From contig NW_024068273.1 in the NCBI RefSeq assembly GCF_009389715.1, positions 65,001-129,000 of the forward strand: a stretch of DNA of 64,000 nt, read 5' to 3'. Below the pieces are notes generated by a model. That model had not been told where the DNA came from, made no database searches, and was given only the letters and a program-made list of their open reading frames with translations. Below are positions 4,761-42,090 of the stretch, in pieces. Each line of letters opens with the position of its first letter. The first letter of the stretch is position 1. A program made the position numbers and the translations under genes. Source of the stretch: Phoenix dactylifera (lineage: Eukaryota; Streptophyta; Magnoliopsida; Arecales; Arecaceae).

Positions 4761-5382
4761 CAAGATCGGAGAACTGTCCCGAACCGAATGGTTCCAGCCG
4801 TTCCGAGCCGTACTGACAGCTCACCGGTACGGTTTCGGCAATGGAAACAAAAACTGTTGCCGGAGTCAGAGAAGAAGAAAGAAAGAGAGAGCGAGCAAAG
4901 GAGGAAGGGAGAGGGAGGGAAGCCGGCGGAGGGTGGGGAGGCGAGGCCGCGGCCGGTTCCTCTGTTTCGAATGGGATAGGGAGGGAGAGGGAGAGAGAGA
5001 GAGAGAAAGGCCGGCGGAGGGTGGTGGACGCTGGTGGAGGCTGAGGGAGGCGAGGCTGCGGCTGGTTCCTTTGTTTCGAATGGAGGAGGGAGAGGGAGGG
5101 AGGCCGGCAGAGGGTGGCAGACGCTGGCGGAAGCTGCGGGAGGCGAGGCCATGGCCGGTTCCTCTGTTTCGAACGAAACAGAAAAACCAGCCACCAGCCT
5201 CCGCCGCCAGCCTCCTCTCTCCCTCCCTCTCTCCCCATTTTCTCTCTCTCTATTTTTTTTCTCCCACGGTCTGCATGCCCTTTCCTCTGTCGGTACAGGC
5301 CCGACACGGCACGGCACGGGCTCGTACCGACTTGTGCCGCCAGAAAATCGGTATGGTACCTGGTACCAGTTCCGCTGATCTT
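4761..5382. mobile_element. Non-autonomous DNA transposon with GTACCG-rich ends, 622 bp
   Basis: This block is absent from the equivalent intron in copy 2 (near 26,500), so its edges can be read directly. It is flanked by a 9-bp duplication, TTTTCAGAC (4,752-4,760 and 5,383-5,391). The ends form an imperfect inverted repeat: AAGATCGGAGAACTG at the left against AAGATCAGCGGAACTG inverted at the right. The interior has about three tandem units of 70-100 bp, each GA-rich and ending in GGTTCCTCTGTTTCGAA. Short GTACCG/GGTACC runs sit near both ends. A 9-bp duplication points to the Mutator superfamily. No transposase is encoded; the open frames across it are by-products of high GC. Confidence 0.75.
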
Positions 5383-11085: not shown

Positions 11086-11617
11086 AAGATCATTCAGAAA
11101 TTGATGCCAAGATCATTTCCCAAAAAATAAAAAATGAATTGATGCCAGGATAATGCCAACAAATAAACGATCAAGTTGGACAAGAAACTGATTTTTTTAT
11201 TTAACAAATTATATATTCAAAGAATATGGCAGCAATCAAACTTGGTTAATGTTGACCAAGGATTTAAATATCGGTGCCCATGCTCATGCCAAACACCTGC
11301 AGGCACAGTATCTCTGCGCGCCATGCCGGCACATGTTTAATTTTGTATCGAAGGAAAAAAGAAATAAAGAAACTGAAAATTTTCTTTAGATAAAAAATTA
11401 AGAATGGATTTAATAGGGTTGTGCTGATCCATACCGATGATTCTGCACTATTAGCATGCTCGATCTTCACACTATCCAACACTTGTTTCTCTTGTGTTCC
11501 AGCGTCGATTGTTTCTTTGCTCTCTATTTTCTCTGCAACAACAGATAAAGAAACAGAGCAATTAGCCAACATGCAAGTATAGCTACTTGCAATTTTGACA
11601 GGTCGAGGAATAGATGG
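11086..11617 (-). other. Downstream of the CNL gene, with a possible extra 3' exon
   Basis: On the minus strand a good acceptor (polypyrimidine tract then TTGTTGCAG, ending about 11,535) opens onto a short acidic and charged frame beginning EKIESKETIDAG, followed by a GTATGG donor-like site near 11,436. In one frame it could be a C-terminal tail of the CNL protein. The splice from GATCG|GTAGCC in the last exon reaches it, but in a different frame. The remainder to 11,086 is AT-rich with no gene seen. Confidence 0.35.
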
Positions 11618-14600: not shown

Positions 14601-17532
14601 GATTGGATGGCAGTCCTTCCTCTGATAAGAGCTGGAGTTGAGGACAATTGTATATCTTCAGATCTTTAAGCGAGTGGAGATGATGCAGCCCTGCTATGGA
14701 TGTGAGTTGCCGACAACCAGAAATGTATACCCTCTCAAGCATGGATGGTGATACGGGTGCGTCCAGATTTCCAAGAGAGTCATGAATGTATAGAGGAAGA
14801 GATCTTATTTTTTCACAACCGATTATATCGATTTCTTGAAGTGATGCAAAGGAGAAAGGATTTCCCACCCATTCTGGAAACTTGGAACCACTATACCCTT
14901 TTATAGACAAAACTTTAAGGTTGGCATGAGGTTGGAGATACTTGAGCATGGCTTCCTCTCTTTTTTCATCTGCTGGGACATCCTTATTTTTCTCTGGAAA
15001 AGATTCTAGATGTAGCAATCTGTTATGACGCATATCATTTTTGCAGTCGACCGCTTTCCAATGTAGAAACAACTTCTCAAGTTTATGCTTATGTTTAAGA
15101 TCGGCATCCCTGACATGCTCTATGTTGACCAAGTTCCTGAGCCCTGAGATGCTGAGAAATCCTTGGAGATTCACCAAGTCCTTTAGCACTCCTCCTATCC
15201 CACCCTGCACTTTATAACTTCCAAGCAAGTTCTGAAGATTTGCTAGTTTTCCGATCCTAGCTGGTAGGCAGAGATTTACCCGGTTCACAATTTGTAGGTG
15301 GTGAAGGTTAGTAAGGTTGCCTAGGCCATCCGGTAACTCTGCAAGATTCCGGCAATCAAGTACCAATGTCTGTAGGTGATAAAGGAGGCATATTGATTCA
15401 GGGAGCTTCTCAATTTTGTTGGATGTGATATTTAAGTATCGTAGGTTGGTAAGGTTGCCTAAGTCATCTGGTAACTTTGCAAGATGCGGGCAATCAAGTA
15501 CCAATGTTTGTAGGTGATAAAGGAGGCATATTGATTCAGGGAGCTTCTCAATTTTGTTGGATGTGATACGTAAGTAGCGCAGGTGCTTTAGGTTACCGAG
15601 TAAATCTGGGATCTCATCTTCCCTTTCCCAACAAAATTCTAGAGTCCGTAAACATCTTAGTAGCAACAGAAACTTGATTAATTCTTGGATTGCTATTGGA
15701 AATCTAAGCTGATGCTGTATTAACAGGGTCCGTAAAGCCCTAAGATTATACGAGCACAGTGATTTCCCAAATTCCTTTTCATCAGCTTTCACATATAAAT
15801 GGCGAACCTCATCAGGGTGATTGGGCAGCTTCTTATCCACAATTGCCCAGCACTCATTTACCGCAATAGATTTCGCTAGATCATGTATCATATTATGCAT
15901 CTTAAACTTAGACCAATAGGAATCAAAGAACGATCTTCTTTGCAAGTCATTGAAGTATTCACTGCCAATGTCTTCCGTTCTTCTTCTACCTCCACATGTC
16001 TGGATGTAAGCTTGCGCCATCCACAATCGGACTAATTCACCTTTGTCAAACTCATAATCCTTGGGAAACATGGAACAATAAACGAAACAAGGTTTTAGAT
16101 GTGCTGGCATGCGGCTATAGCTTAATCTAAGAGCTGGCAAAATCTTATTATTCTCGTCGACTTCCCATATGTCACTTTGTATGACATCCATCCAGCTATC
16201 TTCATCTGTCGTGTATCTCAGAAGGCTTCCTATTGACTTCACAGCCAATGGTAAGCCGGAACACTTCTCGACAATCTGCTTACCCATATTCAACAAGCGT
16301 GGTTGTTCTTCAGGTTCTCGACCATGGAATGCATAATGCCTGAATAATGCCCAAGATTGCTCTGGAGACAAGCAGCGAGGATGATAAGGATGCACTGTCT
16401 GCATGATCTCAGCGACCGAATCATTCCTACAGGTCACAATAATTCTTACTATTTCTGCACCAATGAAGGGAAGCAACACTCTCTCCCAATGGCTTTGCTG
16501 ATCATTCCAGACGTCGTCGAGCACGAGCAACACTCTCTTCCCCTTCAGCTTTTCCTCGAGAGTATCTTGAAGTGTGCTTAGTTGTGCAAGATGACATGAA
16601 TTTTGAGTAATACACTCAATGATGTCCTTTGTTAGCCTTTTAACATCGAAATCATCAGATACACAAACCCATCCGGTTAGATTGAAATATTGTTTTACCT
16701 TGGGATCATTATAGACCAGCTGAGCGATGGTGGTTTTTCCCAGTCCTCCCTTGCCGACAATCGGAACGACGGAGATACCATGTCCCACACCCTCTGAAAA
16801 CAGCAAGTCAATTATCGCCTGCTTGTCGTGTTCCCTTCCATAAATACTCGACTCATCCACCTTGTGGCTGGTTGGTGCTGGGTACGGAGCTTCGAGGACT
16901 CGTCGCTCTCCATCTTCCTCTCTTAAATGGAGGTTTTCTCGATCCTGCGAGATCTTATCGAACCTCTCCCTGATCTTTCTGATTCTATCCCCCATGCCGT
17001 CCGGAATTGAAACCTGTTGGAGTTTTAAATTTATAAAAGGATTTAATTTTTTAAAAAAAATAAATCAGCCTTATCCTCTGAATTTTAGATGATTTAAATA
17101 CTTTAAAATACTTATTTTTTCAGACGTTTCTATCCCCCATGCCGTCCGGAATTGAAACCACTATGGTGGAAAGAGACCACTTACCTGTTCCTCATCGTCC
17201 CCTTCCACTCGCTTCCTCTTGCGGGAAGTTCGGCTTTCCCCTTGGGCTCGCAGTACCTCGTACTGGTACTCGTCCAGCACGTCGTCTGCTTCATAAGCCA
17301 CTTCTTTAAGCTCCTTCAGCCAGAGCTTGACGGATTTGTCTCGTATCTCCCTCTCCTCCGCGTCATGGAGCACTGCTCGGATCCTCTCCAATGTTCTCTC
17401 CAGCTCCTTCAGATCTTCCAAGACACTGCTGCGTGGATCCGATGATGAAGACGGCGAGACTGCCCAACTGCGAACACAGCCCAATACTTGGCTGGTTTTT
17501 GATAGGATGGAAGAGAGGAAAGCGCTCGCCAT
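11618..17532 (-). CDS. CC-NB-ARC-LRR (CNL) disease-resistance protein, RGA type, with expanded LRR exons
   Basis: An intracellular immune receptor of the RGA/R13L4-like CNL class. Exons by splice consensus: 17,532-17,185 (coiled-coil Rx_N domain with an EDVID-like EVAYEADDVLDEY), 17,013-14,251 (NB-ARC and first LRRs), 14,104-12,974, 12,827-12,234 and 12,094-11,618. All join in phase 0, for about 1,770 residues, against roughly 900-1,400 for typical CNLs. Visible motifs by residue: P-loop GKGGLGKTT (203-211), kinase-2 LLVLDDVW (278-285), GLPLA (369-373), RNBS-D CFVYCSMFPKDYEF, and MHN (488-490) where most relatives have MHD. Exons 3-5 are homologous to each other and are separated by near-identical introns of about 140 bp. 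The last exon ends at a TAG where exon 4 has CAG, so a further 3' exon near 11,430-11,535 is possible. No internal stops were seen in the chosen exons. The 3' end is the least certain part. Confidence 0.88.
12974..14104 (-). repeat. LRR-block repeat inside CNL exon 3 (about three 94-residue units)
   Basis: The exon holds about three consecutive copies of a module of roughly 280 bp. Each module runs LRSLVIKDCPGVRVL...LPSTLKSLVVDSC...LAQQNR.AFEELQLVNCPKLEWVEGLNC...LRIERCP. Exons 4 and 5 each hold one copy of the same module. Units are highly similar at DNA level, which suggests unequal exchange or slippage within the gene. The longer unit VASGNKMT... to ...CIQ is itself repeated across exons 3, 4 and 5. 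Confidence 0.85.
17014..17184 (-). other. CNL intron 1 containing a copy of the exon 2 start
   Basis: The 171-bp intron carries a perfect repeat of about 28 bp (17,131-17,158) of the beginning of exon 2 (16,987-17,014), including ATTCCGGACGGCATGGGGG. About 115 bp of AT-rich sequence separates the two copies, and a new acceptor AACTCCAACAG lies just before the downstream copy. The layout fits an insertion flanked by a long direct repeat that lengthened the intron, or moved the acceptor. Confidence 0.75.
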
Positions 17533-18746: not shown

Positions 18747-21730
18747 TCAGTCCAACTACAATATATATCTATATCTATCTATCTATCTATCTATATATTT
18801 ATATATATATATATTGGATGGAGCTCTAAATATCCAGGTATATCTTTTCACAATATTATAATAACAAATTAAGAAAATAATTTCTAATCTGTCAAAAAAA
18901 TAAAAAAAAAGAATAATAGTCATATAGAATCAAAATAATATTTTTTTCAGTGATTTATCAATTTTAAGATTGAGCTACATTATCAATTTTTTTTAAGATC
19001 ATGACTCGATCAAGTTGGAATATTAGATGAATATTTTGGTAATGCTATTTTCTATTTAATTTTAAAATAATTATCATTATCGAATCTATGACATCGATAT
19101 ATTTTTTATTATTTTTAAAAATTAAAGCATATTAAATTTAAATTAAATATAGATGCTGAAATTAGTAAAATATTTTTAGGGATTTGTCAATGTTGAGTAG
19201 TTGTTTTTTTTAAGCGAAGGCGAGAATTTCGTAAAAGCAACATAATTCATTCTATAATAGTTGATATTAACATAAGATCATGTGACATGATAATATTATT
19301 TTTTTTGTCACTTTTTTATTAAGAACAACTCAATTATTGTTACTGAATTTTGATCATTTTTTATTTATTTTTTTAAGTGTATACCCTCCTATGTGTAATT
19401 GTATAAATACTCTTGCAAAATTGCTATTTACATGTGTGTGTGTGTATATATATATATATAAAAGAAGGGTATGGATGTAAAATAAATATTTTATGAGAGT
19501 ATACGTGTAAATAAAAATTTTATGGGGACATTTATATAATTTTATATATTTTAAAGAGTATATATGTAAAAAAAATCAATGAGCATACCAACCAACAAAA
19601 CTGATAGCCATTAATAAATCATATCTAGACAAAGGCTTGTGCTCTTACATGTATAAACTAGTACCGGCACTCAGCATGACAAGACTTGTTCTCTTTCATG
19701 TTTGAACTAGCCTCGGCAGTTGGCCTGACGACACTGTTGGAGACTTCACATATAAAATTCAAGAAAAGTTCAGCAAAAAATAGAAATAAATAAGGTTAAA
19801 TTTATCACTTAAGGTAGTCTCTTAGAGATAATTATTTTCCTACACTATATAGGCAGTTTTGTGGAAATTATTTTTTCTAGAATACAAAGTCCACATATTT
19901 TCTACATCTTAGACTGCATCCCCAAAGTACAGCACCATCAATATCTGTATTAACTTGTAAGAGAAAGAAAGTATAATTGTGAGAAAGAAGAGAAGGAAGA
20001 GTCATCCAATTTTTCCGGAGTATTATCATACTTATAGAAGTGAAAAAAAGGCCTCTTCGTAACATAATGGTAAAAAATTCAAACTTATGGATAAAAAGAG
20101 GAAAATGTAGCATCTCTTAAACCGAAAATAAAAAACTCTGACGGAGACTAGTTCTCTATGATGTTCCAACTGGTCCCAACAACCAGCTAGCAGGGACTAG
20201 CTCAATTTAAAATGCAAACATTTACCTGACGTGAGATATCTCCAACTTGATATTGTTTGTGTTTTTATGCTTTCTACTTGATTCTTGCCCAAGAGATGGA
20301 CCTCACAGTCTCCTCTTTTAACATGTCTAACTTTGTGGGCCAAGCTTAGCATAAGCAATGAATCCTGCCATTTTTGCAGTCAAGAGGTTGTGAGGTGGGG
20401 CTCATGTTTGAGGTGGATGGCCGAGGAAAACCGATTGATAGCCAGATTGCGAGACGCTTGCCGAGTTCTTCACAAGCCAAGAATCCTAATGCAGTTCTCT
20501 GATGCACATTTGCTGAAAAAGAGTTGGGCTAGGGACTGATGGGCTGCGGCCCGGCCCGGCAGTTCTGCACGGCATTTCTCACCACCTTTTCTTTTCCATT
20601 TCCCTCTCTGCTCTCTCTTCTCCTCCTTTCTTCTTGAGAGCCAAGATCCTTTCTTGTGCCTCTTCATTTATGATCATTTCATCTGCTTAGGTGGTGGTTG
20701 TGCAACGTTTCCTAAGAGACTGGTAAACTGTGGTTTACATGGGTTGGTGGATGGCCATAATCCCAGTAGAGACAGAAGTGAAAGCTCAGACGCCTTCTAA
20801 ATGAGAGTCGCATAAAGGAAATTTCAATATGACCGAAAATTCTGAGCGCTGGAACGAGAGAGTTGCACTTTTCGGTGTATCAGCAGCTCTTGAATCCTTC
20901 TGTATTTCCTTTCTTCTTCTTCTTCTTTTTTCTCCTTTCATTGAGACGGCAAAATTTTATAGCCCTGATGAAGATGCAACCATGGAGTTGGAATACAAAA
21001 GATTGCAAAATTGAGGAGCAGGAGTAAAACTTGCCTGGCATGACTGGCAATGCAAAAAGTCGTCCAATCCACCACACTGTTTGTCCTTTTTAATTATCTT
21101 TACAAAAGACTGTTAGTTCTCTCAAAAAAAGAAAGGAAACAAAATTTTTTCCTAGATTGCTCTGGAGAAACAGCAAGAGAGGTCACTCACAGTCTCATCA
21201 TGTCAGCTGCAAAGAATACAATTGGAGAGTGCATGGCAGTTTCTTTCCCTCAAATTTTGATCCAGAGTTTCACAGGCTCGACGCTTCCCTCAAAGCAGAA
21301 ATTTCAGCATGGCTGGCAGTTAGCCAAGGCCAAATCGTCCTGTGGATTCAGGTTGTTATAAGGGATAGTCACCGTATGAAACAAACTTAACTCCACTTCT
21401 CAAGCAACACCATCATAATTTGCATCTGAAAATGCCAAAACATCTCCAAACCAATATCAGAGAACGTTAGTCTGGTTGAGTTCAAGCTGTGAGAGAAAAT
21501 CTCCTCCAAACTCGAAACCCAGTGTCGACAATACTGCACCCACCATTCTCCTTTCAAAAATGCCAGGACTTGTATCCAAAACCAATATATTTGCTCAGCT
21601 TCAGGCAAGGATGACAAACCACCATGACTAAATGCCACCACGACAGACTTCAGAAGCAATGTTCTGGCCATAGACCATTAGAAATGGACAATACCTCCTC
21701 CAAAGCTTTATAGCCGGTAAGTCAGAATCC
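18747..21730. other. Intergenic, AT-rich; MITE-like and microsatellite sequence
   Basis: A TATC/TA microsatellite lies at 18,760-18,815. The segment 18,819-18,955 is nearly identical to 31,838-31,975, a dispersed repeat. At about 19,375-19,580 there is a MITE-like stretch with inverted AT-rich ends around a GT/TA run (19,432-19,460). At 19,630-19,735 two imperfect copies of a 50-bp sequence occur. The stretch 21,080-21,720 is richer in GC but has no recognisable coding sequence. No gene is supported. Confidence 0.5.
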
Positions 21731-22850
21731 ACTGTTTTTTATTCAACAATGAGGGGGAAAACTATTCACAAACTTGACATGATTGTACATGAAAAATCAG
21801 AATCATATCCTCTTTCTTAAGATAAAAAGTAGCGCTAAAATTAGGATGGAAGAGAGGTGTGTTTACATTTGCACTCACTCCAGCCACAAGTAAATAACTG
21901 TCAATAGTAAATAATAAGTAAAATTGGTTCAAAATATACAATTCATCTTTTTGAGGAAAAGCATACAGTTCACCCTTAATTCTCACAAAACCACATTTTT
22001 GCTCAAATTGCATTGTCAGCACAAGCCCACATGTGGGTGACCCTCTTATGCATAATAATTAGTTTACGTGCTGATTAGTTTATTATGAAGTGTGGTTATT
22101 TATGTATCATGAGTCTTATATTTCCTTTCTCACCCACTCTACTCTGGTTGATTGGATGTCACAATACAAACTCAAATTCAATCTATCAAGCTGAAACATC
22201 TCAGAAGTCTCGAAAACATCTAAGGAGGTGGAGGAGAGATTGTAATGAAAACTATCTCTGGACACCTGCAAAATGGGTGAAGAAATTAAAAGACTTGATC
22301 ATTAGCTGGGGGAAATAAAACTTGAGAACTATTTAATTTGCACTCTCATACCTTTTTTCCCCAAGGTCCAATGTTTTTCTATCAAATTTGCAAACAATAC
22401 ACTATTTTGAGTCCCATGATAATTCTCATAAAAACTTGTATTGGGCATGGGTATTTATTTGACAAAAGAACTGATTAAAGACTATCTATCCAGGAGAACA
22501 TCCTGCTGAAGATTATCCAATATATCACCACTTCACCCCAACACAATCAAAGTTGGATACTGATAGGGCATCACACTGTTTCACAGAGCAAAATTTCAGC
22601 TCTGATAAACTAATTTACATTTCATCATCTTTATGAGAACTACCCTATAACCAGAAAGAAATCGTGATAACACAAAAGATAATATTCATTGTAAAATATA
22701 ACTGTATATTGGAACCATGCATTTAATTTCACAGTACCGCACATGAACAATGTAAAGATAAAATCACCACCAATCACCATCTGTATCGCCATCAGCGGGT
22801 ATGCTGTCACAAGAAATCTGAAGCGTAAGATCTTGGGTAAAGGAGAACAG

Positions 22851-25800
22851 TCAACAACAGCTGCTAGTAGAAGCATCAGCTTGTGGTGGCTTCTGCTTAA
22901 AAATGTTGTTCTTCACACCTGCCGAACCCTCAGCCAAGAGGCTTGGTGTATCTAAGATCTGTACCATTGATGTAAACAATTATTACTCATATTTTTAATA
23001 GACCTCCAGTAGCTTATTGTGATAACATGTATATAGAATATGCAATTTCAACATCCATCTATTCTTACTTCTAATGCTTTTCTCTTTCCTCATTAAGTGG
23101 TCAGTGCTTCCTCTAAAACTCTAGAAGAAAAATCTCAAAAGCAAGGAAGAGGATAGCCTGGTATAAGATAGATCTGGAATACCTTTTGTCTAAAACATTG
23201 CCAAAAAAAGTGAAAGAAAAAAATTACTAACAGAGCAAACCAACAAACAGTTCAAGCATCTGGAAATCTAGCTGGCAGAAAATACTCCCTTGGAATTTAG
23301 CATGGGTATATAGGATGCCCAAGACTTAAACCTCCAGCAAAGCATAGAGATAATGTACTACAAAACTAGAATAGGCTGACAACTCAATGGCACTTGTTAA
23401 AAAACCTCTGCTAAATGCCATTTTATGGTAAAGAAGAAAAGGTATACCACATAATAATGGGAAATCCTACAATAATGCCGCTTAAAAATTGCAAAAATAA
23501 AATCATCATCCCATGTAGAAGACTTCTCTTCAAAAGGTTCCTCAAAAGTTATGCAAGACCTTTGCATAAATCTATTTTTACTTTCACTAAATATATATAT
23601 CTAAGCTAAATCAAAGGGTCTGGGTTCACATAAAGTAAAACTGGCTTTCCAGACATTTGCATAACTAACAATTGCAGCACAATCTTTCAGCTGACTTGGA
23701 AACAGATACTTCGTGTTGATAATATAACCCAGATCTCAGAATCAATAGACAATAGACCTCCCAACATATGAAACATCAGATGTATTGGAATTTTCATACC
23801 TTTAAGACAAGCTCTTCAAAGCATTGTTCCACATTGACTCGTGTTTTTGCACTACATTCTAAAAACAGACATCCATATTCCCTAGCAAAGTCAATGCCCT
23901 CCTTCTTTGTGACAACTCTCTCACTTTCCTGGAAACATAAAAAAGCATAAAAATTTCCATCCCTCTTTTAATTAAACATGTATTATCAATATATGGAAAA
24001 AAAGCTAAAGATACAACAGATGATGCCAAGGTTAAGAACATGATACATAATATCAAAATAGAAATTAAATGACTGGTTTATTGCATTATACAAAATTGCA
24101 CATTAAAAATAAAGATCTAACTAGATACATGTACATTACCTTATCAACCTTGTTACCAACAAGCATTTTGATGCAATCTTGATTAGTTGAGTAAAGGTCT
24201 ATTTCCTTAGCCCATACATCAGCAAGGTTGGTGAACGTTTCCCTTCGTGTTACATCATAAACTGTCATAAATTACCGAGAAAAAAAATTAATTATCAGCA
24301 AAACATTTTCACCATACTGTCTATGCTAATATTGAGCTATGCGGATGTCATGACATTTATAAAGAAACAATAGTGTAGATCTGCGCAAAGAAGATATATA
24401 GTCTTGGTTGAAGAGATATATTAGCTATTAAGTAAAAGCTGAAAGATTGTCCACTCAGATGAGTGACTAAGCAATTCAGATGGTCCCTAGATTCCTGGTT
24501 CAAGAAGTAGGAGTTTAATTCAATGTACTGGGAGATGCACACAATGAAAATAGTGGCCATATAGCATATTTAGGCTATGGACCAAACCTAATACAGTCTT
24601 GTGAGAGTAGAAAACATTAAGCTAGGGCCAGCTAGGTTTACAAATATAAGTTCTTACTACGGTCCTTTTCTCCTTATGCCTCCCTTACACCGGAGCCGTA
24701 GGACAAAAGAGCAGCAAGAATAGAACCAGCCCGTATATTATCCTTCTTTCCACTTGTTCAATGTTACCTCCTTGTTCTCTTTCTGCTTTCTGGTCCTCTC
24801 TTCCTAATCCTATCGTATCCTCTTCTCCTAAGTTGTTCTCAGTTCCTTCTTTTTTACCTTTAATTTCATTTGTCATCTGAGTTTATCGGAAAGATATTGA
24901 GTTTACCTGAAGATAAATGGCTAAGAGGAAGATATAAAGATCAGATAACATAGTCGTACCAGCAAGGCAACCTGAATAATCTGAGAACTAAATTCTGCTG
25001 CAATATCCAGATATTATTAGATAAGAGTCATTAGTGATGCTGAATAGATCTAGTAACTCTTTCTCAATCCAAGGAATATTTGAAGCTGTTTACAGCATAC
25101 ATGATTACAGTTTCAGCTTTGCAGTGTCCTCTTAGCTTGCATGTGTGAATCTTACATGGTGCTGATCTGATTTCTGGTTGGTTAGGTGTCACACTAATAA
25201 ATTGCCAAGAAGAGGTGATACATATAATTATCTAATGTTAGTTCTTTTAGTAGATGGACTATTTTTTGAATTACAGTATCTCTCCAAGGCATATGCTTAC
25301 TAGGTTAGTTACTCAAGGTCAACAAAGAGGAACAGGTAATAGAGGGGTAAATACACCATTTAGTCATTTTCTCCTACAAAAATGTTTACTTAGTATTTGC
25401 ATGTACAAGTCATTTTCTCCTTTAACTTTTGTTCCATGCATAGTTTTGTTGTTTTATGCAAGAAAGGGTGTTAAAGTATACATGATAATTTTTCTGAAAG
25501 AATTCCAGATAATGAATCTATAATCCTCGCCTTTAAAAAAATCTATAATTCTTTCATTTACTTATTTGATTCTTGCATCATCTCAAACAAAAATTCATGG
25601 CATCTTTCCCTAATTCATAGTGCTCGCAACTATCTAGCTTAGATTATGATTACATACCTGAAGCAGCAAAATACTGCATTCCAAATATTAGATAATAGCT
25701 GGATATTTTGACAGGTTCAATCTAGATGCATAAATACTTGTTGCATGCCAAGGCCATATCTGATATGTGTGGCACACTGATATGCATTGGACAAAGTTTG

Positions 25801-28800
25801 TTTATGTGTCAATACTTAAGTATCTTTTCATATCCAGATAATTCCTGGATAGACTTAGGTATGATGGTAAAAGGCTCTCTTTGACGAATATGAACCTTTT
25901 AGTTGTGGATCATGATGGATATTTTAATTTCAGTAATTGTAGTACTAATGTTATCATAAGGTATAGACTATGTTATTAAGGTCACCTATCATGCATCATG
26001 GATGCTTTTTTTTTTTACACAGATATATTTATATTTATTTACTTAATATTTTCTATTATAGCCAGATTCTGTCCTATTTTTGCTGAAGGTTCGCCACAGT
26101 ATTTGCTCCATGCTTCGTAGCACTTAATGGATTTGATCTGACACCTGAACCAGGATCTGAACAGTTAATCCTAGAGTGGTGTCCACAGATAATCCTCCAC
26201 AAAGCCTATTGTTATAGTTCATTTTAACATATTTTATCAACATAAATATTCAAATTATCCTTAATAACAATTTGTCAATTCATCACTTGTAAATTGGTAA
26301 ATATAATTACATAACAAGGAATTTTTTTATTATGTATCAGTTTATTTACATTTTAGGGCATCATTATATTCCACAGAGATAATGATCCTACATGGTGTTC
26401 TAGAATTTGGAGGTTGCCAAATTGTAGCCATGACCGTGCAGCCATATCCGCATTCTTTTCAGTCTTTAGGTGTCAAAGATAATAGTACACGTACTTTTCA
26501 GGCACAATATTGGCTACAATGATGTATATAGATCACCCGGTTCATTGAGCTTAGGCAATAGAACTGAAGGATTGTAGAAGGAAAAACCAAGATTGCTGAC
26601 TAGAACACAAGAAATAGTAGAGTAGTTGCAGCGCATATGAAAAACTAACATCCAAATTTTCTCTTCATCAATGAATGATATTAGAATCTAATAAAATGAA
26701 AAGGTATCAAATTCAAATTCAACAGTATAGAAAAGAGTAATGCATAATTGCATACCCATGATGATCCCTTGTGCTCCTCTGTAATATGAGCTGGTTAAAG
26801 TTCTGAACCTTTCTTGTCCAGCTGCATGATACAGATGCTTTTTCTGTTATCACTAATTTCCATTCAAAAGTCATAGATCATTCATTACATCATAGAATGC
26901 CTTCTTAGAATCTCAAAATATACGTGCGCATGTATGCATGTATAACTTATCGAATAAAATAAGATAGAAGGATCCACTGCAAATCACAAGAATTAATCAA
27001 AAGACTTCTCATCTATTGAAATAGAATTTTCCTTGCAATTACAAGGGATAAAACAATGTAGAAATAGGTTAGGACATGCCAAGGGGCTAGGCTGATAGAC
27101 TTTCAGGAGCTAGGCTGGTGCTAGAAGCTTGGAGTGCATCCTGCTTTTGTTCATTTTTGAGGTCACAATCACTTGTTAGCTTCTTGTTGCTTCATTAATT
27201 GTTTGCACTCTACCTTATGAATTACCAGATCTAATGACACCAACATAAAATGCCATGCAACAAGCATTTAAACTCAACTTTAACCTGATGTCCTATTTAC
27301 ATCAAATTGACCTCGTGGATCCAAATACGACCCACCAAGGTCTGAAATATATCCACAAACAATCTGAACTTGACAATAACACCCTATAAATTGTTACAGG
27401 TCATAAAGCAGCTCAAAGAAAAGAGGAGCTGCCATTATTCCTCAAAGACGAGTTGGTTTAAAGGCAAAAAATCCTTGTTCATTTTGTGGTTTAAGCAATC
27501 TGTAAAGGTCAAGCAATAAGACAAAGAGGAAAGGTCATCCAGAGCAAAGATTTTACCAATTTAAAGTTCTATTGGGATCTGATTGGTTGTGTATAACTCT
27601 AAATCCATTGAAAACATACTATGCCTGGTCAACTTGCTACATACCAGAATTGCTCATGATACTATTAACTCATGAAAATAAATGCATGTCTGCTGCATAG
27701 CATTTGTTAACAAACAGATTGTCATGAAAACTGCAGTTGCGCATAAAGAGTAAGAGAGGAAGGAAATACAAAAATATTTTTAATTGTTTTAAATGGTAAT
27801 ATACAAGTACATAGTGCTACCATCATACCAGAATGGCTGGTGTATTAGTAGATGGATGTACTTAATTACAAGATCAACCTCTTATTCTCCCATGAATAAA
27901 AGTAACTTCTCCATTTGCAAATAACAAGCTTTATGAGCTTTTGGAACTCCAAATAGTTGTTTCAATAGTGAATTACATTTCCATACCATCCATGCTAATA
28001 TTGCTATTCTCATACGCCAAAAAAATAACCTTCTTTCTCACACTTCAGAAAAAGGTTACCAGTTCATTGTGGGATTTTAATCAAATTTCACTCTCTATTC
28101 ATTTCATGGTCATTCTTTATGTCCTCACAAAGCTTCTTATTGTTGGTTCCTGTACTCTTTAGGATAGGGTGAATGTAACAGCTCAGAAAATTCAACTTTT
28201 GGCAATAGCATCACAAAAATAATGCATCCTCTTCATAGGGTTAATTTTCAGGCATGAATAGCAATGGTCAGGGGATTAAGTCAAATTTAACACCTCAGGA
28301 GTTAGAATAAATCAACAGAAGCAAATGAAATGAGTATATGACCAAAAAAGAAACCAAAGTGGCATCTCATAAGATAAAACGAGCTAAATCGTTACCAGTG
28401 TCCCAGATTGCAAGCTTCAGCTTTTTGCCTCCAATTGTAACCATTTTTACCTTGAAATCCACACCTGAAACAAAAAAAATGAAGCATTTGATCAAAGTAA
28501 TTGATAAAACAAACAAAATTGTGAAAAACTTGCGACGCTAGCATGTTATTGAACTCCAGTCTTAATGAAAATTCTTTCAGAATAAATTTTTACTATGAAG
28601 AAAATCTAATGCAAGAATACATTCAGTTCTGAATAGTCCAACTGAGCCACATAATCTACAGGAAGCAAATCAAATATCAGAAAAGATAATTTGTTGGAAA
28701 TACTGATTGACATTAGAAGGATTACAGCTAACCATGTTGGTATCAACCACAATAAAAAGACAAGATGAAGATTTTTTATGATGTCCTCATTACGAACAAC

Positions 28801-29752
28801 TTAAGATCATTATTCCCAAAATATCTACCAAATGAACATGTTTTTTCTATGATCATTGCTACCAATTCTAACTACAAATTGTTCTTTGTTCTTGGTTCTT
28901 GGCAACTCTAACACCCTCAAGTATTACAACAAAAACTAGTAAAATTTTCATCATTATCTTAATCATCCTCCATAAATAAATAAAACAGAGCATTTACAAA
29001 CCATAACACAATATCAATTCTACCACAGTAGCACCTGATCATTTCATTTTCCAATTTAGATGTAAAAATATTATCAAATTCATATACTTAAAAGCTTTGC
29101 ACTGCAACCTCTGCTATGATTTTAGCCACCGGACATCATTTGCAACTCTCAGTCTCATATGTCCAAGTATTACAACAAAAACTCAGTTATTGCACATTTT
29201 TCTATTACCATTGATCAATAAATACACAAACCACTAGCAAACAACAATACAGCATCAATTCAACTATATAGCTGCAAATCTCACTTTTCCAATTCGTACA
29301 CACATATAATATCAAATGCTTACACTTAGAAGCAGTAGTACTCTGTGATTGTTTCTTCAATTATTCTTTATAGCTCTCACACCCTCAAGAATTACAATAA
29401 TAACTCATTGATCACATGATTTTCATAATTATAAGCCGCACGTATACAAACAGACCATTCAGTAGCAACAACACATTATAAGTTCAATCCAGTAGCTTCA
29501 AATTTTTCTCATTTCTAGATGTATGCACAAAAATTATCGAGCTCCTTAATAAAACGCATTGCATTACTGGAAAAGCTCGAAGAAACAAATGGAAGGATCT
29601 GAAATCTCACCAATCGTGGGGGAGAGATCGTCGAAGGAGTCCGAGGTGAATCTCAGCAGGAGGCTGCTCTTCCCCACCCCCGAATCCCCGATTAGCAACA
29701 ACTTGAACAAATAATCGAACTCCGGTTGGCTCAAAGACGACGAATCCATCAT
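22851..29752 (-). CDS. RABC1: RABC1/Rab18-type small GTPase, intact copy
   Basis: A Ras-superfamily GTPase of the plant RABC (Rab18) group, which acts at membranes as a GTP/GDP switch. Six exons: 29,752-29,611, 28,464-28,396, 26,821-26,756, 24,261-24,140, 23,928-23,800 and 22,958-22,851, all with GT-AG borders; total 636 nt, 211 residues, the normal Rab length. Motifs: P-loop GDSGVGKS (22-29), switch I Thr in SPTIGVDF (46), G3 DTAGQ (69-73), G4 NKVD (129-132), G5 SAK (159-161), and a C-terminal Cys-Cys (210-211) for double prenylation. The start is ATGATG; either Met (29,752 or 29,749) is possible. The sequence around [13 protein letters not shown] and the tail [11 protein letters not shown] matches RABC1 better than RABC2. 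No breaks were seen. Its duplicate at 1,120-9,547 is dead, so this is probably the only working copy here. Confidence 0.93.
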
Positions 29753-30166
29753 ATTATTACTTCAGAAACCCTAGAAAACGCATGGAAAACGCTAAAAAAA
29801 GCACCAAAATGAAACGATTGAACGAAATCTAGATCCCAAGAAGCGATCTTTCTACGGTAAAGAGAACCCAAAAAGATCTCAGCGCACCTCGAATCTGGAA
29901 TTAAGGGGGGAGGAATTCAAGATCTTGGGTCAAGAATTCGATAAATAGAGGATTAGAGAGTAAAAGCGGTAGCGGAAAGGAAGACAAGGGGGAAGGAATC
30001 CCGCGGTGGTGAAGAAAGCTGCAGGTGGCGACTAAAGAAAGACGGAAACGGTGGCGGTGGATTCATATTATTAGACCAGGCTGTACGAAGCTTACTTTAA
30101 TATTATACTAATAATAATAATGATAATAATTTAAAATTTAATTATTAATTAAAGTCATTTAAAAAA

Positions 30167-32601: not shown

Positions 32602-33606
32602 TCAAACGTGGAACTGCTCGAGCTGCACATCCCTGGCTTTGAGCGGCATGTAGTCCCCCAAATAGACCTCCAGATGGTCGGCTAGGCTCGACTTATCGAT
32701 GCTCTCGTGATGGTACGACTTGCACACGAAATACACCACCGTCTGCGCCACCAGCGCGAACAGAATCACCGCACAAAGGAAGGACAGCATCAGCACCGAG
32801 TACCCGACCCTGGACCCCACCCCGAGATTCAAGTAATTCCCCCGGACGACCGCAAGTCGGAAACCCACTTCCACACCCACGAAGCAGAGGTTGAGCACGA
32901 CGAAAATGGCGACGGCCGTCCAGGTCTTGCCCCGGATGAGGGCCCGGCTCTTGCGCATGGCCTCGATGCCGCAGGCGTCCTCGAGGACGGAGACGACGCT
33001 GGCGACGTGCCAGACGACGCTGATCCAGACGAGGCCGGCGGCGTAGACGAGGGCGATGAGGGCGATGGCGACGAGCCCGGCGGTGTGGGCGCCGAGGAGG
33101 AGGACGGCGAGAACGGCGAGGATGAGGGCGGCGGTGTTATAGGCGACGAGGAGGAGGAAGGCCCAGAGGAAGGTGATCATGAGGCGGCGCCAGACCTTGG
33201 GAACGACGGCGAGGACCTTGGCGAAGGAGAGGTCCTTGGCGGTGTAGATGGAGGCGACGGAGTAGACGACGGCGGAGGTGGAGAGGAGGGAGAGGACGAG
33301 GAGGGCGAGGAGGTAGGCGGCCTTGAAGAGGAGGAAGGCGGACCACTCGGCGGAGAGGCGGGAGAGGATGGCGGACTCCGAGGGGGAGCCCGGGGTGGCG
33401 ACGTCGAGGGCGACCTCGCTGCGGTCGATCTTCGAGAAGAGGAGGTGGGAGACGTAGATGTGGGCGAGGAAGAGGACAGAGAGCGGGAGGACCAGGGCGA
33501 GGGCGATCTGGGCGAAGAGGCGCTGCCATGAGTGCAGGATCTTGGAGGCCTCGTGGCAGATCCCCACTATACCCAAGAATTGGAGCTCCTCCGGCTCTCG
33601 ATCCAT
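32602..33606 (-). CDS. Plant integral membrane protein, six predicted spans, function unknown
   Basis: A single-exon gene of 334 residues. The start is the Met of MDREPEELQFLGIVGI at 33,606. The frame stays open 44 codons further upstream, but that part reads through 5' UTR-like sequence and into the end of a transposon, so it is unlikely to be used. Hydrophobic spans lie near 31-57, 91-115, 141-171, 176-208, 230-250 and 268-296, with a conserved-looking loop EDACGIEAMRKSRALIRGK between spans 4 and 5. It resembles a plant family sometimes labelled polyadenylate-binding-protein-binding or uncharacterised transmembrane protein; no enzyme motif is visible. The coding strand is GC-rich in the 5' part, unlike its surroundings. 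The opposite strand has a long open frame caused by that composition, which I do not consider real. Confidence 0.88.
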   Translation of the reverse strand: MDREPEELQFLGIVGICHEASKILHSWQRLFAQIALALVLPLSVLFLAHIYVSHLLFSKIDRSEVALDVATPGSPSESAILSRLSAEWSAFLLFKAAYLLALLVLSLLSTSAVVYSVASIYTAKDLSFAKVLAVVPKVWRRLMITFLWAFLLLVAYNTAALILAVLAVLLLGAHTAGLVAIALIALVYAAGLVWISVVWHVASVVSVLEDACGIEAMRKSRALIRGKTWTAVAIFVVLNLCFVGVEVGFRLAVVRGNYLNLGVGSRVGYSVLMLSFLCAVILFALVAQTVVYFVCKSYHHESIDKSSLADHLEVYLGDYMPLKARDVQLEQFHV

Positions 33607-33720
33607 GTCGACGATTCGAAGAAGAAGAAGAAGAATTAGAATTAAGGTTTCTCTTTGGGGAATTGGGGACGAGTCGACTACACAGAGAGGAGAAAGGAGC
33701 GAAGGGGATGGATGGAGAAA

Positions 33721-34597
33721 GGGTGGTTCTATATACACCCCCCCTATTGCTCAGGACACCCCCCAAAAATTAAAAAAAAATTAAATACTCTGTACACTCC
33801 CCCATTTGCTAAGGACACCCCTAAAAAATTAAAAATTCTTAAATTACCCCCCACCCTCCCCACCCCCTCACCTAAATTGCTCTCTACACCCCCCAAACCC
33901 CCCCCACCCCGCTCTTCCCCTCCAAAACACCTCGCCAACGCCCAAAACCCCCCCGTTCCCCCTTCTCCCTCTCGTCGCCGGCATTCTCCCGATCTCCGAC
34001 CACCTCGCCGGCTTCTCCCGGAACCACCTCGCCGGCTTCTCCCGAAATTTTTTTTTTTTTATGATTCGTGCTCCGTTCGGCACTGGATCGCCGAACAAAA
34101 GGCTTCTGTTCGGCTGAACAGTGCCGGACAGAAGCCTTCTGTTCGGCACTGTGCAGCCGAACAGATCTGTTCGGTTGAGGGTTGCCGAACAGAAGGCTTC
34201 TGTTCGGCACTGTTCAGCCGAACAGAAGCCTTTTGTTCGGCGATCCAGTGCCGAACGGAGCACGAACCTTGAAAAAAAAAAAATTTCGAAACAAGGTGGA
34301 ACACGTACCTTTGCGGCCGATTCTTCGTCCCAAATCACTAGTTGCTTGTCCATGCTTCGAATGGGGCTTAAATCTCCTTCAAAGATCGCCTAAACGATGT
34401 AAATGGATCGAGGGGTTTAAGGGGGGTTTGAGGGGTGTTTTTTTTTTTCTTTTCAAAACGAAACGGAGGAGGAAGGGGGGGTGTATGAGAAAATTTCAAG
34501 GGCAATATGGTAATTACACTAAAGGTTAGTTTGGGTATTTTTTTTTTGGTTTTTGGGGGGTTTCCTTAGCAATAGGGGGGTGTATATAGAACCACCC
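33721..34597. mobile_element. Foldback Mutator-like element E1, 877 bp, with a unique gene-like insert
   Basis: It begins GGGTGGTTCTATATACACCC and ends with its inverse, and is flanked by the 9-bp duplication ATGGAGAAA (33,712-33,720 and 34,598-34,606). It shares the left half and the centre (clustered TGTTCGGC/GCCGAACA motifs) with E2-E5. In the right arm the palindromic sequence is replaced by about 123 bp of unique DNA (34,288-34,410). On the minus strand that piece reads ATG at 34,353, 15 codons (MDKQLVIWDEESAAK) and a strong donor AAG|GTACGT at 34,309/34,308. This looks like a captured first exon, or a relic of the parent element. Mutator superfamily is inferred from the 9-bp duplications. 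Confidence 0.88.
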
Positions 34598-34606
34598 ATG
34601 GAGAAA

Positions 34607-35454
34607 GGGTAGTTCTATATACACCCCCCTATTGCTCAGGACACCCCCCAAAAATTAAAAAAAAATTAAATACTCTCTACACCCCCCATTTGCTAAGGAC
34701 ACCCCTAAAAAATTAAAAATTCCTAAATTACCCCCCACCCTCCCCACCCCCTCACCTAAATTGCTCTCTACACCCCCCAAACCCCCTCCCACCCCGCTCT
34801 TCCCCTCCAAAACACCTCGCCAACGCCCAAAACCCCCCCGTTCCCCCTTCTCCCTCTCGTCGCCGGCATTCTCCCGATCTCCGACCACCTCGCCGGCTTC
34901 TCCCGGAACCACCTCGCCGGCTTCTCCCGAAATTTTTTTTTTCACGGTTCGTGCTCCGTTCGGCACTGGATCGCCGAACAAAAGGCTTCTGTTCGGCTGA
35001 ACAGTGCCGGACAGAAGCCTTCTGTTCGGCACTGTGCAGCCGAACAGATCTGTTCGGTTGAGGGTTGCCGAACAGAAGGCTTCTGTTCGGCACTGTTCAG
35101 CCGAACAGAAGCCTTTTGTTCGGCGATCCAGTGCCGAACGGAGCACGAACCGTGAAAAAAAAAAATTTCGGGAGAAGCCGGCGAGGTGGTTCCGGGAGAA
35201 GCCGGCGAGGTGGTCGGAGATCGGGAGAATGCGGGCGACGAGAGGGAGAAGGGGGAACGGGGGAGGAGGGGTTTAAGGGGGGTTTGAGGGGTGTTTTTTT
35301 TTTTCTTTTTAAAACGAAACGGAGGAGGAGGAGGGGGGTGTATGAGAAAATTTCAAGGGCAATATGGTAATTACACTAAAGGTTAGTTTGGGTTTTTTTT
35401 TTTTGGTTTTTGGGGGGTGTCCTGAGCAATAGGGGGGTGTATATAGAACTACCC
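34607..35454. mobile_element. Foldback Mutator-like element E2, 848 bp
   Basis: Terminal inverted repeats of about 48 bp start GGGTAGTTCTATATACACCC. An inner palindrome of about 200 bp per arm (roughly 34,838-35,257) contains the repeated TGTTCGGC motifs. The flanks are the same ATGGAGAAA as for E1 (34,598-34,606 and 35,455-35,463), so that 9-mer occurs three times with E1 and E2 between. There is no transposase; open frames on both strands are by-products of the palindrome. Confidence 0.88.
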
Positions 35455-35476
35455 ATGGAGAAAACGGAGGTGGACT

Positions 35477-37195
35477 GGGTGGTTCTATATACACCCCCCC
35501 TATTGCTCAGGACACCCCCCAAAAATTAAAAAAAAATTAAATACTCTCTACACCCCCCCCATTTGCTAAGGACACCCCTAAAAAATTAAAAATTCCTAAA
35601 TTACCCCCCACCCTCCCCACCCCCTCACCTAAATTGCTCTCTACACCCCCCAAACCCCCCCCCCACCCCGCTCTTCCCCTCCAAAACACCTCGCCAACGC
35701 CCAAAACCCCCCCGTTCCCCCTTCTCCCTCTCGTCGCCGGCATTCTCCCGATCTCCGACCACCTCGCCGGCTTCTCCCGGAACCACCTCGCCGGCTTCTC
35801 CCGAAATTTTTTTTTTCACGGTTCGTGCTCCGTTCGGCACTGGATCGCCGAACAAAAGGCTTCTGTTCGGCTGAACAGTGCCGGACAGAAGCCTTCTGTT
35901 CGGCACTGTGCAGCCGAACAGATCTGTTCGGTTGAGGGTTGCCGAACAGAAGGCTTCTGTTCGGCACTGTTCAGCCGAACAGAAGCCTTTTGTTCGGCGA
36001 TCCAGTGCCGAACGGAGCACGAACCGTGAAAAAAAAAAAATTCGGGAGAAGCCGGCGAGGTGGTTCCGGGAGAAGCCGGCGAGGTGGTCGGAGATCGGGA
36101 GAATGCCGGCGACGAGAGGGAGAAGGGGGAACGGGGGAGGAGGGGTTTAAGGGGGGTTTGAGGGGGGTTTTTTTTTTTTTTCTTTTCAAAACGAAACGGA
36201 GGAGGAGGAAGGGGGGTGTATGAGAAAATTTCAAGGGCAATATGGTAATTACACTAAAGGTTAGTTTGGGTATTTTTTTTTGGTTTTTAGGGGGTGTCCT
36301 GAGCAATAGGGTGGTTCTATATACACCCCCCTATTGCTCAGGACACCCCCCAAAAATTAAAAAAAAATTAAATACTCTCTACACCCCCCCATTTGCTAAG
36401 GACACCCCTAAAAAATTAAAAATTCCTAAATTACCCCCCACCCTCCCCACCCCCTCACCTAAATTGCTCTCTACACCCCCCAAACCCCCCCCCCCCCACC
36501 CCGCTCTTCCCCTCCAAAACACCTCGCCAACGCCCAAAACCCCCCCGTTCCCCCTTCTCCCTCTCGTCGCCGGCATTCTCCCGATCTCCGACCACCTCGC
36601 CGGCTTCTCCCGGAACCACCTCGCCGGCTTCTCCCGAAATTTTTTTTTCACGGTTCGTGCTCCGTTCGGCACTGGATCGCCGAACAAAAGGCTTCTGTTC
36701 GGCTGAACAGTGCCGGACAGAAGCCTTCTGTTCGGCACTGTGCAGCCGAACAGATCTGTTCGGTTGAGGGTTGCCGAACAGAAGGCTTCTGTTCGGCACT
36801 GTTCAGCCGAACAGAAGCCTTTTGTTCGGCGATCCAGTGCCGAACGGAGCACGAACCGTGAAAAAAAAAATTTCGGGAGAAGCCGGCGAGGTGGTTCCGG
36901 AAGAAGCCGGCGAGGTGGTCGGAGATCGGGAGAATGCTGGCGACGAGAGGGAGAAGGGGGAACGGGGGAGGAGGGGTTTAAGGGGGGTTTGAGGGGTGTT
37001 TTTTTTTTTTCTTTTCAAAACGAAACGGAGGAGGAGGGAGGGGGGTGTATGAGAAAATTTCAAGGGCAATATGGTAATTACACTAAAGGTTAGTTTGGGT
37101 ATTTTCTTTTTGGTTTTTGGGGGGTGTCCTGAGCAATAGGGGGGGTGTATATAGAACTACCCTGAGCAATAGGGGGGGTGTATATAGAACTACCC
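35477..37195. mobile_element. Foldback Mutator-like element E3, about 856 bp, interrupted by E4
   Basis: It starts GGGTGGTTCTATATACACCC at 35,477 and runs to 36,308. Its last 24 bases resume at 37,172-37,195, after the nested E4. The flanking 9-bp duplication is AGGTGGACT (35,468-35,476 and 37,196-37,204). It lies only 4 bp from the ATGGAGAAA site used by E1 and E2. The internal layout is the same as E2. Confidence 0.9.
36309..37162. mobile_element. Foldback Mutator-like element E4, 854 bp, nested in the end of E3
   Basis: A complete element flanked by TGAGCAATA (36,300-36,308 and 37,163-37,171), a 9-mer that is part of the family's own terminal repeat. E4 therefore inserted into the right terminal repeat of E3. 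It has the same ends, inner palindrome and length as E2 and E5. Confidence 0.9.
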
Positions 37196-37204
37196 AGGTG
37201 GACT

Positions 37205-38554: not shown

Positions 38555-38563
38555 GAAAAAAAT

Positions 38564-39413
38564 GGGTGGTTCTATATACACCCCCCCTATTGCTCAGGAC
38601 ACCCCCCAAAAATTAAAAAAAAATTAAATACTCTCTACACCCCCCCATTTGCTAAGGACACCCCTAAAAAATTAAAAATTCCTAAATTACCCCCACCCTC
38701 CCCACCCCCTCACCTAAATTGCTCTCTACACCCCCCAAACCCCCCCCCACCCCGCTCTTCCCCTCCAAAACACCTCGCCAACGCCCAAAACCCCCCGTTC
38801 CCCCTTCTCCCTCTCGTCGCCGGCATTCTCCCGATCTCCGACCACCTCGCCGGCTTCTCCCGGAACCACCTCGCCGGCTTCTCCCGAAATTTTTTTTTTT
38901 CACGGTTCGTGCTCCGTTCGGCACTGGATCGCCGAACAAAAGGCTTCTGTTCGGCTGAACAGTGCCGGACAGAAGCCTTCTGTTCGGCACTGTGCAGCCG
39001 AACAGATCTGTTCGGTTGAGGGTTGCCGAACAGAAGGCTTCTGTTCGGCACTGTTCAGCCGAACAGAAGCCTTTTGTTCGGCGATCCAGTGCCGAACGGA
39101 GCACGAACCGTGAAAAAAAAAAATTTCGGGAGAAGCCGGCGAGGTGGTTCCGGAAGAAGCCGGCGAGGTGGTCGGAGATCGGGAGAATGCTGGCGACGAG
39201 AGGGAGAAGGGGGAACGGGGGAGGAGGGGTTTAAGGGGGGTTTGAGGGGTGTTTTTTTTTTCTTTTCAAAACGAAACGGAGGAGGAGGAAGGGGGGTGTA
39301 TGAGAAAATTTCAAGGGCAATATGGTAATTACACTAAAGGTTAGTTTGGGTTTTTTTTTTTTGGTTTTTGGGGGGTGTCCTGAGCAATAGGGGGGGTGTA
39401 TATAGAACTACCC
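38564..39413. mobile_element. Foldback Mutator-like element E5, 850 bp
   Basis: A fifth copy of the family, 1.4 kb from the cluster, flanked by GAAAAAAAT (38,555-38,563 and 39,414-39,422). Ends and inner palindrome match E2 and E4 almost exactly. It independently confirms the element boundaries and the 9-bp target duplication. Confidence 0.9.
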
Positions 39414-39422
39414 GAAAAAAAT

Positions 39423-41514: not shown

Positions 41515-42090
41515 CTTTTGGATGCCCCCACCTCTAGGTTTCCTCAAGATGAACTTCAACGGCAATGTGGATGATGAGGGGAGATGCAACGGCACAGGGT
41601 TCGCCATCCGAGATCACAACTCCAGATTAGTTGCGGTGGGAGGCCGACAGACTTTTGGCTCGTCAGTGGTGTGTACAGAGATTAGAGTAGCCTGGAAGGG
41701 CATCTACTACGTGAGGCGGACACTAAGTGCAGACTATATTATTCTTGAGAGCGATTCAGCCACAGAGGTTGAGTGGATTCGAGGACGGGGACATACTACT
41801 GAGGACCGGCTGTTGATCCATGAGATTCGCAAGTTGATGGAGGAGTGCGACTCCCACCAAGCTTCATACGTGTTCAGGGAGGCCAACGGGACGGCCGCCT
41901 GGGTGGCCTTTTATGCGACCTACTACTCCGGTGGTTTTGTTTGGGTGGACAGTGGGTCTGTTGCAGGGCCATTACGTAGTGTTCTATTTTCTGATTTTGT
42001 TGGCTATATTCACACCCGTAGTATGTGAGCCGTCGATGCACAAAAAGAAGAAGAAGACGACGACGACGACGACGACGACCACACAAGCTG
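41515..42090 (+). mobile_element. LINE remnant: RNase H-like C-terminal domain
   Basis: An open frame at 41,522-42,028 encodes 168 residues typical of the RNase H domain at the end of plant L1-type LINEs: PPPLGFLKMNFNG, GTGFAIRDHNSRLVAVGG, TEIRVAWKG, IILESDSATEV, VFREANGTAAW and the tail VLFSDFVGYIHTR. The Glu of TEIR and the Asp of ESDS remain. The first catalytic Asp (usually NFDG) is Asn, and the last (usually REAN..AD) is Ala, so it is probably inactive. A (GAC)n run follows at 42,056-42,079, consistent with a decayed 3' tail. No reverse transcriptase is attached upstream, so it is a 5'-truncated copy. Confidence 0.75.

Follow-up and report, generated by a model that had tools for sequence, protein, structure and literature searches.

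Foldback elements clustered upstream of an open reading frame in the date palm are probably internally deleted members of a Mutator-like transposon family

We analyzed a 64,000-nucleotide stretch of the date palm (Phoenix dactylifera) genome (RefSeq assembly GCF_009389715.1, contig NW_024068273.1, positions 65,001 to 129,000; hereafter, the window), which carries 5 short repeated elements, E1 to E5. We assign a probability of roughly 0.94 to the conclusion that E1–E5 are nonautonomous, internally deleted members, i.e., foldback miniature inverted-repeat transposable elements (MITEs), of a single family of Mutator-like elements (MULEs), presumably mobilized in trans by a transposase that longer family members in the same genome encode. 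The conclusion follows from the ends and 9-bp target duplications that they share with long forms holding an open transposase exon.

All 5 elements lie on the plus strand. E1 (877 bp; 33721–34597) belongs to a subtype that retains a transposase exon-1 arm, whereas E2 (848 bp; 34607–35454), E3 (856 bp in total; main part at 35477–36308, end of the right terminal repeat at 37172–37195), E4 (854 bp; 36309–37162), and E5 (850 bp; 38564–39413) are of the foldback subtype. The original prediction had reported 4 copies of about 850 bp and a fifth at 38,564, each with 9-bp target duplications; the copies are located as claimed, with exact limits now set at 848 to 877 bp, and the duplications are perfect in all 5 cases. 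Among the corrections to its picture is that E4 is nested inside the right terminal repeat of E3, which it splits. The sequence ATGGAGAAA is found 3 times around E1 and E2 (33712–33720, 34598–34606, and 35455–35463), the middle occurrence being common to both elements, whereas AGGTGGACT flanks E3 (35468–35476 and 37196–37204), TGAGCAATA flanks E4 (36300–36308, within the E3 terminal repeat, and 37163–37171), and GAAAAAAAT flanks E5 (38555–38563 and 39414–39422). When the inserts are removed in silico, a plain empty site is recovered, with the E1/E2 and E3 duplications falling within 22 bp. A minus-strand open reading frame (ORF; 32602–33606) of 334 aa has its ATG at 33606, and the site begins 106 bp upstream of this codon. 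The ORF has E1–E4 on its 5′ side, appears membrane-like by eye, and matches no Pfam family at the cut-off. A profile search of the window for further copies recovered none, the sole match being at chance level (E 0.32).

The terminal inverted repeats align over 59 to 62 bp in all 5 elements, exceeding the approximately 48 bp first proposed. The core consists of 6 units of ~33 bp, each an imperfect palindrome (TGTTCGGC...GCCGAACA), together forming an overall inverted repeat (34074–34270 in E1), and the left arm additionally carries 59-bp and 24-bp tandem pairs. An inner palindrome of about 200 bp per arm, as originally described, is present in E5, where the arms (38792–39006 and 39007–39221) are 215 nt long, gapless, and 96% complementary; in E2–E4, by contrast, small indels divide it into a core of 116 to 119 nt and a further stretch of ~108 nt (108 nt at 99%, as demonstrated for E2 and E3), and E1 has just 130 nt per arm at 90%. 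The near-identity attributed to the copies is likewise a property of E2–E5, which differ pairwise by 3 to 8 substitutions (0.35% to 0.94%), but not of E1, which shows 76 to 81 substitutions against each of the others; 63 of its fixed differences fall within the right arm, whose sequence is unlike that of the others, and 11 lie outside it. E1 is of a different subtype from E2–E5. On the minus strand, its right arm encodes a start codon and 15 codons (34309–34353), followed by the splice-donor-like sequence GTACGTG, a remnant of transposase exon 1 of the coding element. The long inverted arms composed of shorter repeats (33, 24, and 59 bp) that define foldback elements are present in the cluster, although weakly so in E1, in which most of the right arm is not inverted.

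Four copies in the same orientation within 3.5 kb, with one 9-mer common to E1 and E2, could also be the product of local tandem or segmental duplication of a single insertion, by unequal crossing-over or replication slippage. This is contradicted by the distinct target duplications, E3, E4, and E5 each having a different 9-mer of their own. Furthermore, E4 resides inside the end of E3, E1 and E2 are of different subtypes (92.8% alike), and the closest relative of E4 is E5 (3 substitutions) rather than E3 (7 substitutions). We therefore consider local duplication extremely unlikely and regard the cluster as the outcome of transposition.

To place the cluster in its genomic context, we searched the P. 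dactylifera assembly (773,078,369 bases in 2,391 records). The original prediction had proposed searching the genome with the terminal repeat and counting copies; the 16-mer from the element end occurs 1,039 times (522 + 517), with no occurrence of the reversed control, indicating roughly 520 elements with intact ends as a lower bound. Searching with E5 produced 922 first-look candidates, of which the best 40 scored comprise E5 itself and 39 other full-length copies that are 98% to 99% identical; this too is a lower bound, E2–E4 being equally similar and not among the best 40 of the 922. The arm of E1 yielded 428 candidates, and the best 40 scored places are all 100% identical over 135 bp. These values agree with the recent activity proposed at the outset, and the family appears to be large and young and is possibly still mobile. 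Twenty further copies, namely, the next 19 E5 matches and 1 hand-picked locus with a second match alongside (C14), were fetched, and 16 of them have perfect 9-bp duplications, so that the matching of flanking 9-mers extends beyond the window. Among the 32 intact duplications collected, none of the 496 cross-comparisons gave a match. The foldback arm, traced by an exact 25-mer, is present in 18 of the 20 copies (all except L046 and L047); L043 holds both subtypes in 2 neighboring elements, the second of which has matching flanking 9-mers, and L046 as well as the hand-picked L049 show nested copies of the family. An assembly artifact, named in advance as an outcome that would undermine the transposon reading, is refuted for the family as a whole because its copies are found on many contigs with different target duplications, whereas the E1–E4 cluster itself was judged on the assembled sequence. 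Beyond the palm, the end and core motifs gave 0 matches each in IMG/VR, and the single GTDB match to the end 18-mer, on a contig of a bacterial metagenome-assembled genome, was dismissed as chance, given that a database of 257 Gb, read on both strands, should contain ~7 such matches by chance.

Long relatives that encode a transposase were recovered through the E1 arm. Eight of the first 20 E1-arm loci are short elements (869 to 1,178 bp) with perfect 9-bp duplications; the remaining 12, in which no perfectly flanked pair of ends had yet been recognized, were read as 10-kb stretches. Half of these stretches contain both ends and a perfect 9-bp duplication, bounding elements of 2.5 to 7.3 kb: L050 (7,314 bp), L054 (6,790 bp), L058 (5,878 bp), L051 (5,408 bp), L060 (4,506 bp), and L055 (2,463 bp). 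The duplication has 1 mismatch in L052 and 5 in L056, and no pairing of ends was possible inside the 10 kb of L053, L057, L059, and L061. A transposase exon of 394 codons runs without stops in half of the 12 stretches (L050, L051, L053, L054, L056, and L058), is partial in L055 and L059, and was not found in the 10-kb stretches of L052, L057, L060, and L061; accordingly, L050, L051, L054, and L058 (5.4 to 7.3 kb) hold an open transposase exon between perfect duplications. Pfam analysis, run on L050, L054, and L058, identified the MULE transposase domain (PF10551) above the cut-off in all 3 (1.2e-27, 1.3e-26, and 5.7e-27, respectively), together with a FAR1 domain (~3e-6). A plant mobile domain (PMD; PF10536) was detected in L050 (6.2e-57) and L054 (8.1e-58), encoded by a separate gene on the opposite strand, convergent with the transposase gene. 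The main exon of this gene was recovered from L050, L054, L056, and L060 and is partial in L052, but only in L050 and L054 are both exons enclosed by perfect duplications.

Collectively, these elements combine a DDE transposase in relatives sharing their ends (L050, L054, and L058), target duplications within the 7 to 12 bp, usually 9 bp, typical of MULEs (5/5 elements in the window, 16/20 short copies, and 6/12 long stretches), and terminal inverted repeats (59 to 62 bp in 5/5), supporting the Mutator-like assignment and supplying the coding partner that the original prediction had called for. Comparison of E1 and E5 with 8 long forms identifies the former as short elements with no intact transposase and with the ends of a longer coding relative, i.e., as nonautonomous MITEs. 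Several weaker features were recorded in the long forms: an OTU-like segment after the transposase exons has weak matches in Pfam (Peptidase_C65, 0.033) and in the PDB, where the best chain is labeled RNA-dependent RNA polymerase (0.0084) and is followed by OTUD5 (0.042), and a SWIM-like zinc finger, with no Pfam match, is seen by eye in the exon after the MULE exon. The exon-1 peptide on the minus strand of E1 was also considered as the Myb/SANT-like start of a PIF/Harbinger gene and was rejected, as it starts the FAR1/MULE transposase gene in the long forms. PIF/Harbinger elements generate 3-bp target duplications, and those of the palm family are 9 bp.

Alignment with the long forms suggests how the short and hairpin forms may have arisen. 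E1 corresponds to the two ends of L050 (~216 bp at the start and ~515 bp at the finish), with identities of 98.1% over E1 positions 1–216 and 95.8% over 370–877 and with the middle of L050 absent; a further left stretch (192–325) is 91.9% identical. In the 7 mapped long forms (L050, L051, L052, L054, L056, L058, and L060), an array of TGTTCGG repeats, of the kind seen in the core of E1, starts ~110 bp past the start codon and, in L050, lies between transposase exons 1 and 2, i.e., in predicted intron 1. L051, L054, L056, L058, and L060, but not L050 and L052, carry a second array at the other end, which alignments show to be an inverted copy of the first (84% to 94% alike). The left subterminal region of L050 (about 3070–3170) contains a different repeat (GGCCCCATGGGGCC) in place of the TGTTCGGC array that those 5 forms carry at that end. 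A deletion joining 2 subterminal arrays could have created the central palindrome. The exon-1 stretch, at L050 element positions ~7000–7122, is missing from E5, and where E1 has the exon-1 arm, E2–E5 all have the left arm copied in inverted orientation. This makes the hairpin longer, with 215 nt per arm in E5 as opposed to 130 nt in E1. The inverted copy may have been made by a later template switch or gap repair, after which the longer-hairpin foldback form would have spread, driven in trans by the transposase of the longer relatives. The cluster would then have been built up by one insertion after another a short way upstream of a gene, among them insertions into the family’s own target duplication (E2 beside E1) and its own terminal repeat (E4 in E3). 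E1 would be the intermediate through which a simple deletion derivative might turn into a long hairpin.

Several observations weigh against this account. The order, E1 type first and foldback type second, is inferred from unrooted comparisons; no movement has been observed, and there is no empty site at these loci from a second genome. In the 20 fetched copies, the flanking 9-mers do not match at the first element of L043 or at L048, an end of L036 is damaged, and the duplication of L035 is off by 1 base. Two of the 6 long forms with perfect duplications lack a full transposase exon (partial in L055, none in L060), and the PMD main exon was not found in L051 and L058. The 6 open copies of the transposase exon show no clear purifying selection, with ratios of nonsynonymous to synonymous changes of 0.27 to 2.7 from 3 to 17 changes. 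Finally, the hairpin-RNA step considered next comes wholly from predicted folding.

The description of each element as almost a hairpin agrees with the predicted folds, which are far stronger than those of shuffled sequences: −656.6 kcal/mol for E5 against −295.4 kcal/mol (standard deviation 7.2; 20 shuffles) and −451.8 kcal/mol for E1 against −251.9 kcal/mol (standard deviation 8.8). The predicted structures pair 80% to 82% of bases in E2–E5 and 70% in E1, a hairpin potential that, on these models, is far beyond chance. A read-through transcript would likely fold into long double-stranded RNA and could feed small-RNA silencing. It is conceivable that the hairpins are retained because they are useful to the palm, whether as sources of small RNA or as parts of a promoter, and did not simply result from the decay and spread of a transposon, given the long, near-perfect arms beside a start codon and the precedent of Mu killer, an inverted MuDR duplicate that silences maize MuDR (PMC3440606). 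However, the foldback subtype is present in many copies on many contigs, as simple spread predicts, and the arms consist of intron and subterminal sequence rather than of the main transposase exons, so that the resulting small interfering RNAs would hit only the ends and the intron. A host function is therefore improbable, and we favor spread of the foldback form as a mobile element.

The shared 9-mer of E1 and E2 is not an isolated case. Across the genome, 15 separate junctions, distributed over 13 contigs, have a right end followed within 0 to 16 bp by a left end, against 0 occurrences of the control patterns. The spacing is 9 bp at 8 junctions, 10 bp at 3, 11 bp at 2, and 5 and 16 bp at 1 each; under a flat spread, the probability of at least 8 of 15 at 9 bp is 6e-7. 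For 520 elements inserted at random, the expected number of shared duplications is 0.0003, or 0.007 if 5% of the genome, an assumed value, is open. The outer ends were read at 8 of the 15 junctions (C5 and C14 being unreadable outside, and C7, C51, C13, C589, and C11:10.88 Mb being left out), and all 8 junctions with at least 1 outer end read share the target. The 9-mer is present 3 times at C1, C11, and C626 (the latter being E1/E2), and at C12, C212, and C2020, the 2 of 3 9-mers that are visible agree. At C2:625,230 (L073–L075), the outer 9-mers agree and the middle one is their reverse complement plus 1 base, which would fit recombination between the outer terminal repeats, whereas at C2:8,547,035 just 5 bp of the outer 9-mer are left in the middle. 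An extra 9-bp junction at L018/L019/L060, with GACGACGAC and with GACCACGAC at one outer side, lies outside the exact pattern and, being in a GAC-repeat setting, is weaker. The members of the tandem pairs are 91.4% (C1), 98.9% (C11), and 92.8% (C626) identical, and those at C11 resemble E1 (98.9% and 98.4%) as much as they resemble one another; the pairs thus represent separate insertions, their members being no closer to each other than to other copies.

The probable source assembly was obtained from a male palm and had 9,753 haplotigs (PMC6794320), raising the question of whether the end–9 bp–end junctions, including E1/E2, are chimeras that joined 2 alleles carrying insertions at the same site, which would affect the junctions but not the assignment to MULEs. 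Even such chimeras would presuppose that the same 9-mer was hit twice, and the target would thus have been re-used in either case. Moreover, the 15 junctions are spread over 13 contigs, and one middle 9-mer is inverted and another shortened, as recombination and deletion would leave them. Chimerism is thus unlikely, and genuine re-use of the target is the preferred interpretation.

Insertions into the family’s own terminal repeat, sought at 15 offsets outside AGCAATAGGG, are found at 5 places, all within 1 base of the E4 site, with the duplication checked at the window case; a scan beside TATATAGAAC revealed 1 more own-end insertion at another spot (C42, identical to L046). The E4 site is therefore preferred but not the only one. 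We tentatively suggest, at somewhat below even odds, that the transposition machinery prefers its own DNA, re-entering the duplicated 9-mer and a favored spot in its own terminal repeat and thereby generating tandem and nested clusters, perhaps guided by transposase already bound at the resident ends. Our caution reflects the fact that open chromatin combined with a preferred 9-mer could yield some re-use. P elements and some MITEs are known for tandem or nested insertion into their own ends. No description of self-targeting of this kind for MULEs was found in the excerpts of the literature searched, and a plant MITE review contained no occurrence of nested, multimer, tandem, self-insertion, or same target. 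Repeated use of one 9-mer and of one own-end spot provides a natural system for studying target choice by a MULE transposase, and a self-seeking MULE, if real, would represent a mode of targeting that those excerpts do not describe for MULEs.

Other features of the window include a direct duplication, 92% to 94% identical in 3 blocks (1–9938 and 21729–30154), flanking an NLR gene region. The latter contains an NB-ARC/LRR resistance-type gene (11598–16995, minus strand), followed by repeated LRR blocks that are ~83% to 86% alike. One duplicate carries an insert of ~620 bp (about 4761–5382), with the other being empty near 26501; TTTTCAGAC flanks the insert left and right, where the empty copy reads TTTTCAGGC. 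The insert is a further element with a 9-bp duplication, for which the paralogous copy supplies the empty site. The first duplicate also holds a 245-bp perfect direct repeat (7307–7551 and 7596–7840) within a stretch (7307–8168) missing from the second. An ORF at 41522–42028 encodes an RNase H-like RVT_3 domain (9.3e-11) and is perhaps a retroelement-derived fragment.

The kind of element described here is already known, as plants harbor foldback MULEs that have GGGG/CCCC ends and 9-bp duplications, and PMD-carrying MULEs as well. In the excerpts of the literature searched, we did not find this particular family, an intronic array as the source of a palindrome, or this degree of target re-use; a text search for the letters of the end and core motifs gave no occurrence, and among the palm MULE and MITE papers listed as matches, none concerned this family by title and abstract start. 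The named MULE families (MuTAnT, Abermu, and others) were compared by description, not by sequence. MuTAnT foldback MULEs of Medicago truncatula, 90% of which are 200 to 300 bp long and which target TA microsatellites, resemble the palm family in their short modular foldback arms, GGGG/CCCC-type ends, 9-nt duplications, location near genes, and mudrA-like autonomous partner (PMC4486113), whereas the palm elements are ~850 bp long, have target duplications of mixed sequence, and have a core made of a 33-bp array from predicted intron 1. Maize Mu shows strong 5′-end insertion hotspots (PMC2774946). The terminal repeats of MuDR/Mu are ~215 bp, as opposed to ~60 bp in the palm (PMC2774946), and the second palm gene, set against the MuDR gene layout (PMC9168764) with mudrB left aside, encodes a PMD.

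PMDs fused to MULE transposases are found in several grasses and Amborella (PMC5418596); the palm long forms likewise are DNA transposons with a MULE transposase and a PMD, but the latter is encoded by a separate, convergent gene on the opposite strand. Abermu shares with the palm family the GGG...CCC ends, 9-bp duplications, and a transposase gene with an opposite-strand ORF and differs, as described, in its terminal repeats (138 to 145 bp in barley) and its position near MuDR in the phylogeny of that paper (PMC9168764). The Tm1 Mutator/Foldback elements of root-knot nematodes have composite repetitive ends, 9-bp duplications, and both MITE-like and transposase-coding members, but constitute an animal family with a Phantom-type transposase (PMC3169594). 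Mu killer of maize is comparable as an inverted MULE derivative proposed to be a source of hairpin RNA; it is a single locus with inverted transposase coding sequence, whereas the palm hairpins are many mobile copies devoid of most coding sequence (PMC3440606). Against this background, the palm family supplies a coding form, a short form, and an intermediate (E1) together. The PMD gene of some long forms, a possible antisilencing gene, and the hairpin derivatives, a possible trigger of silencing, set up a contest within one family that can be tested.

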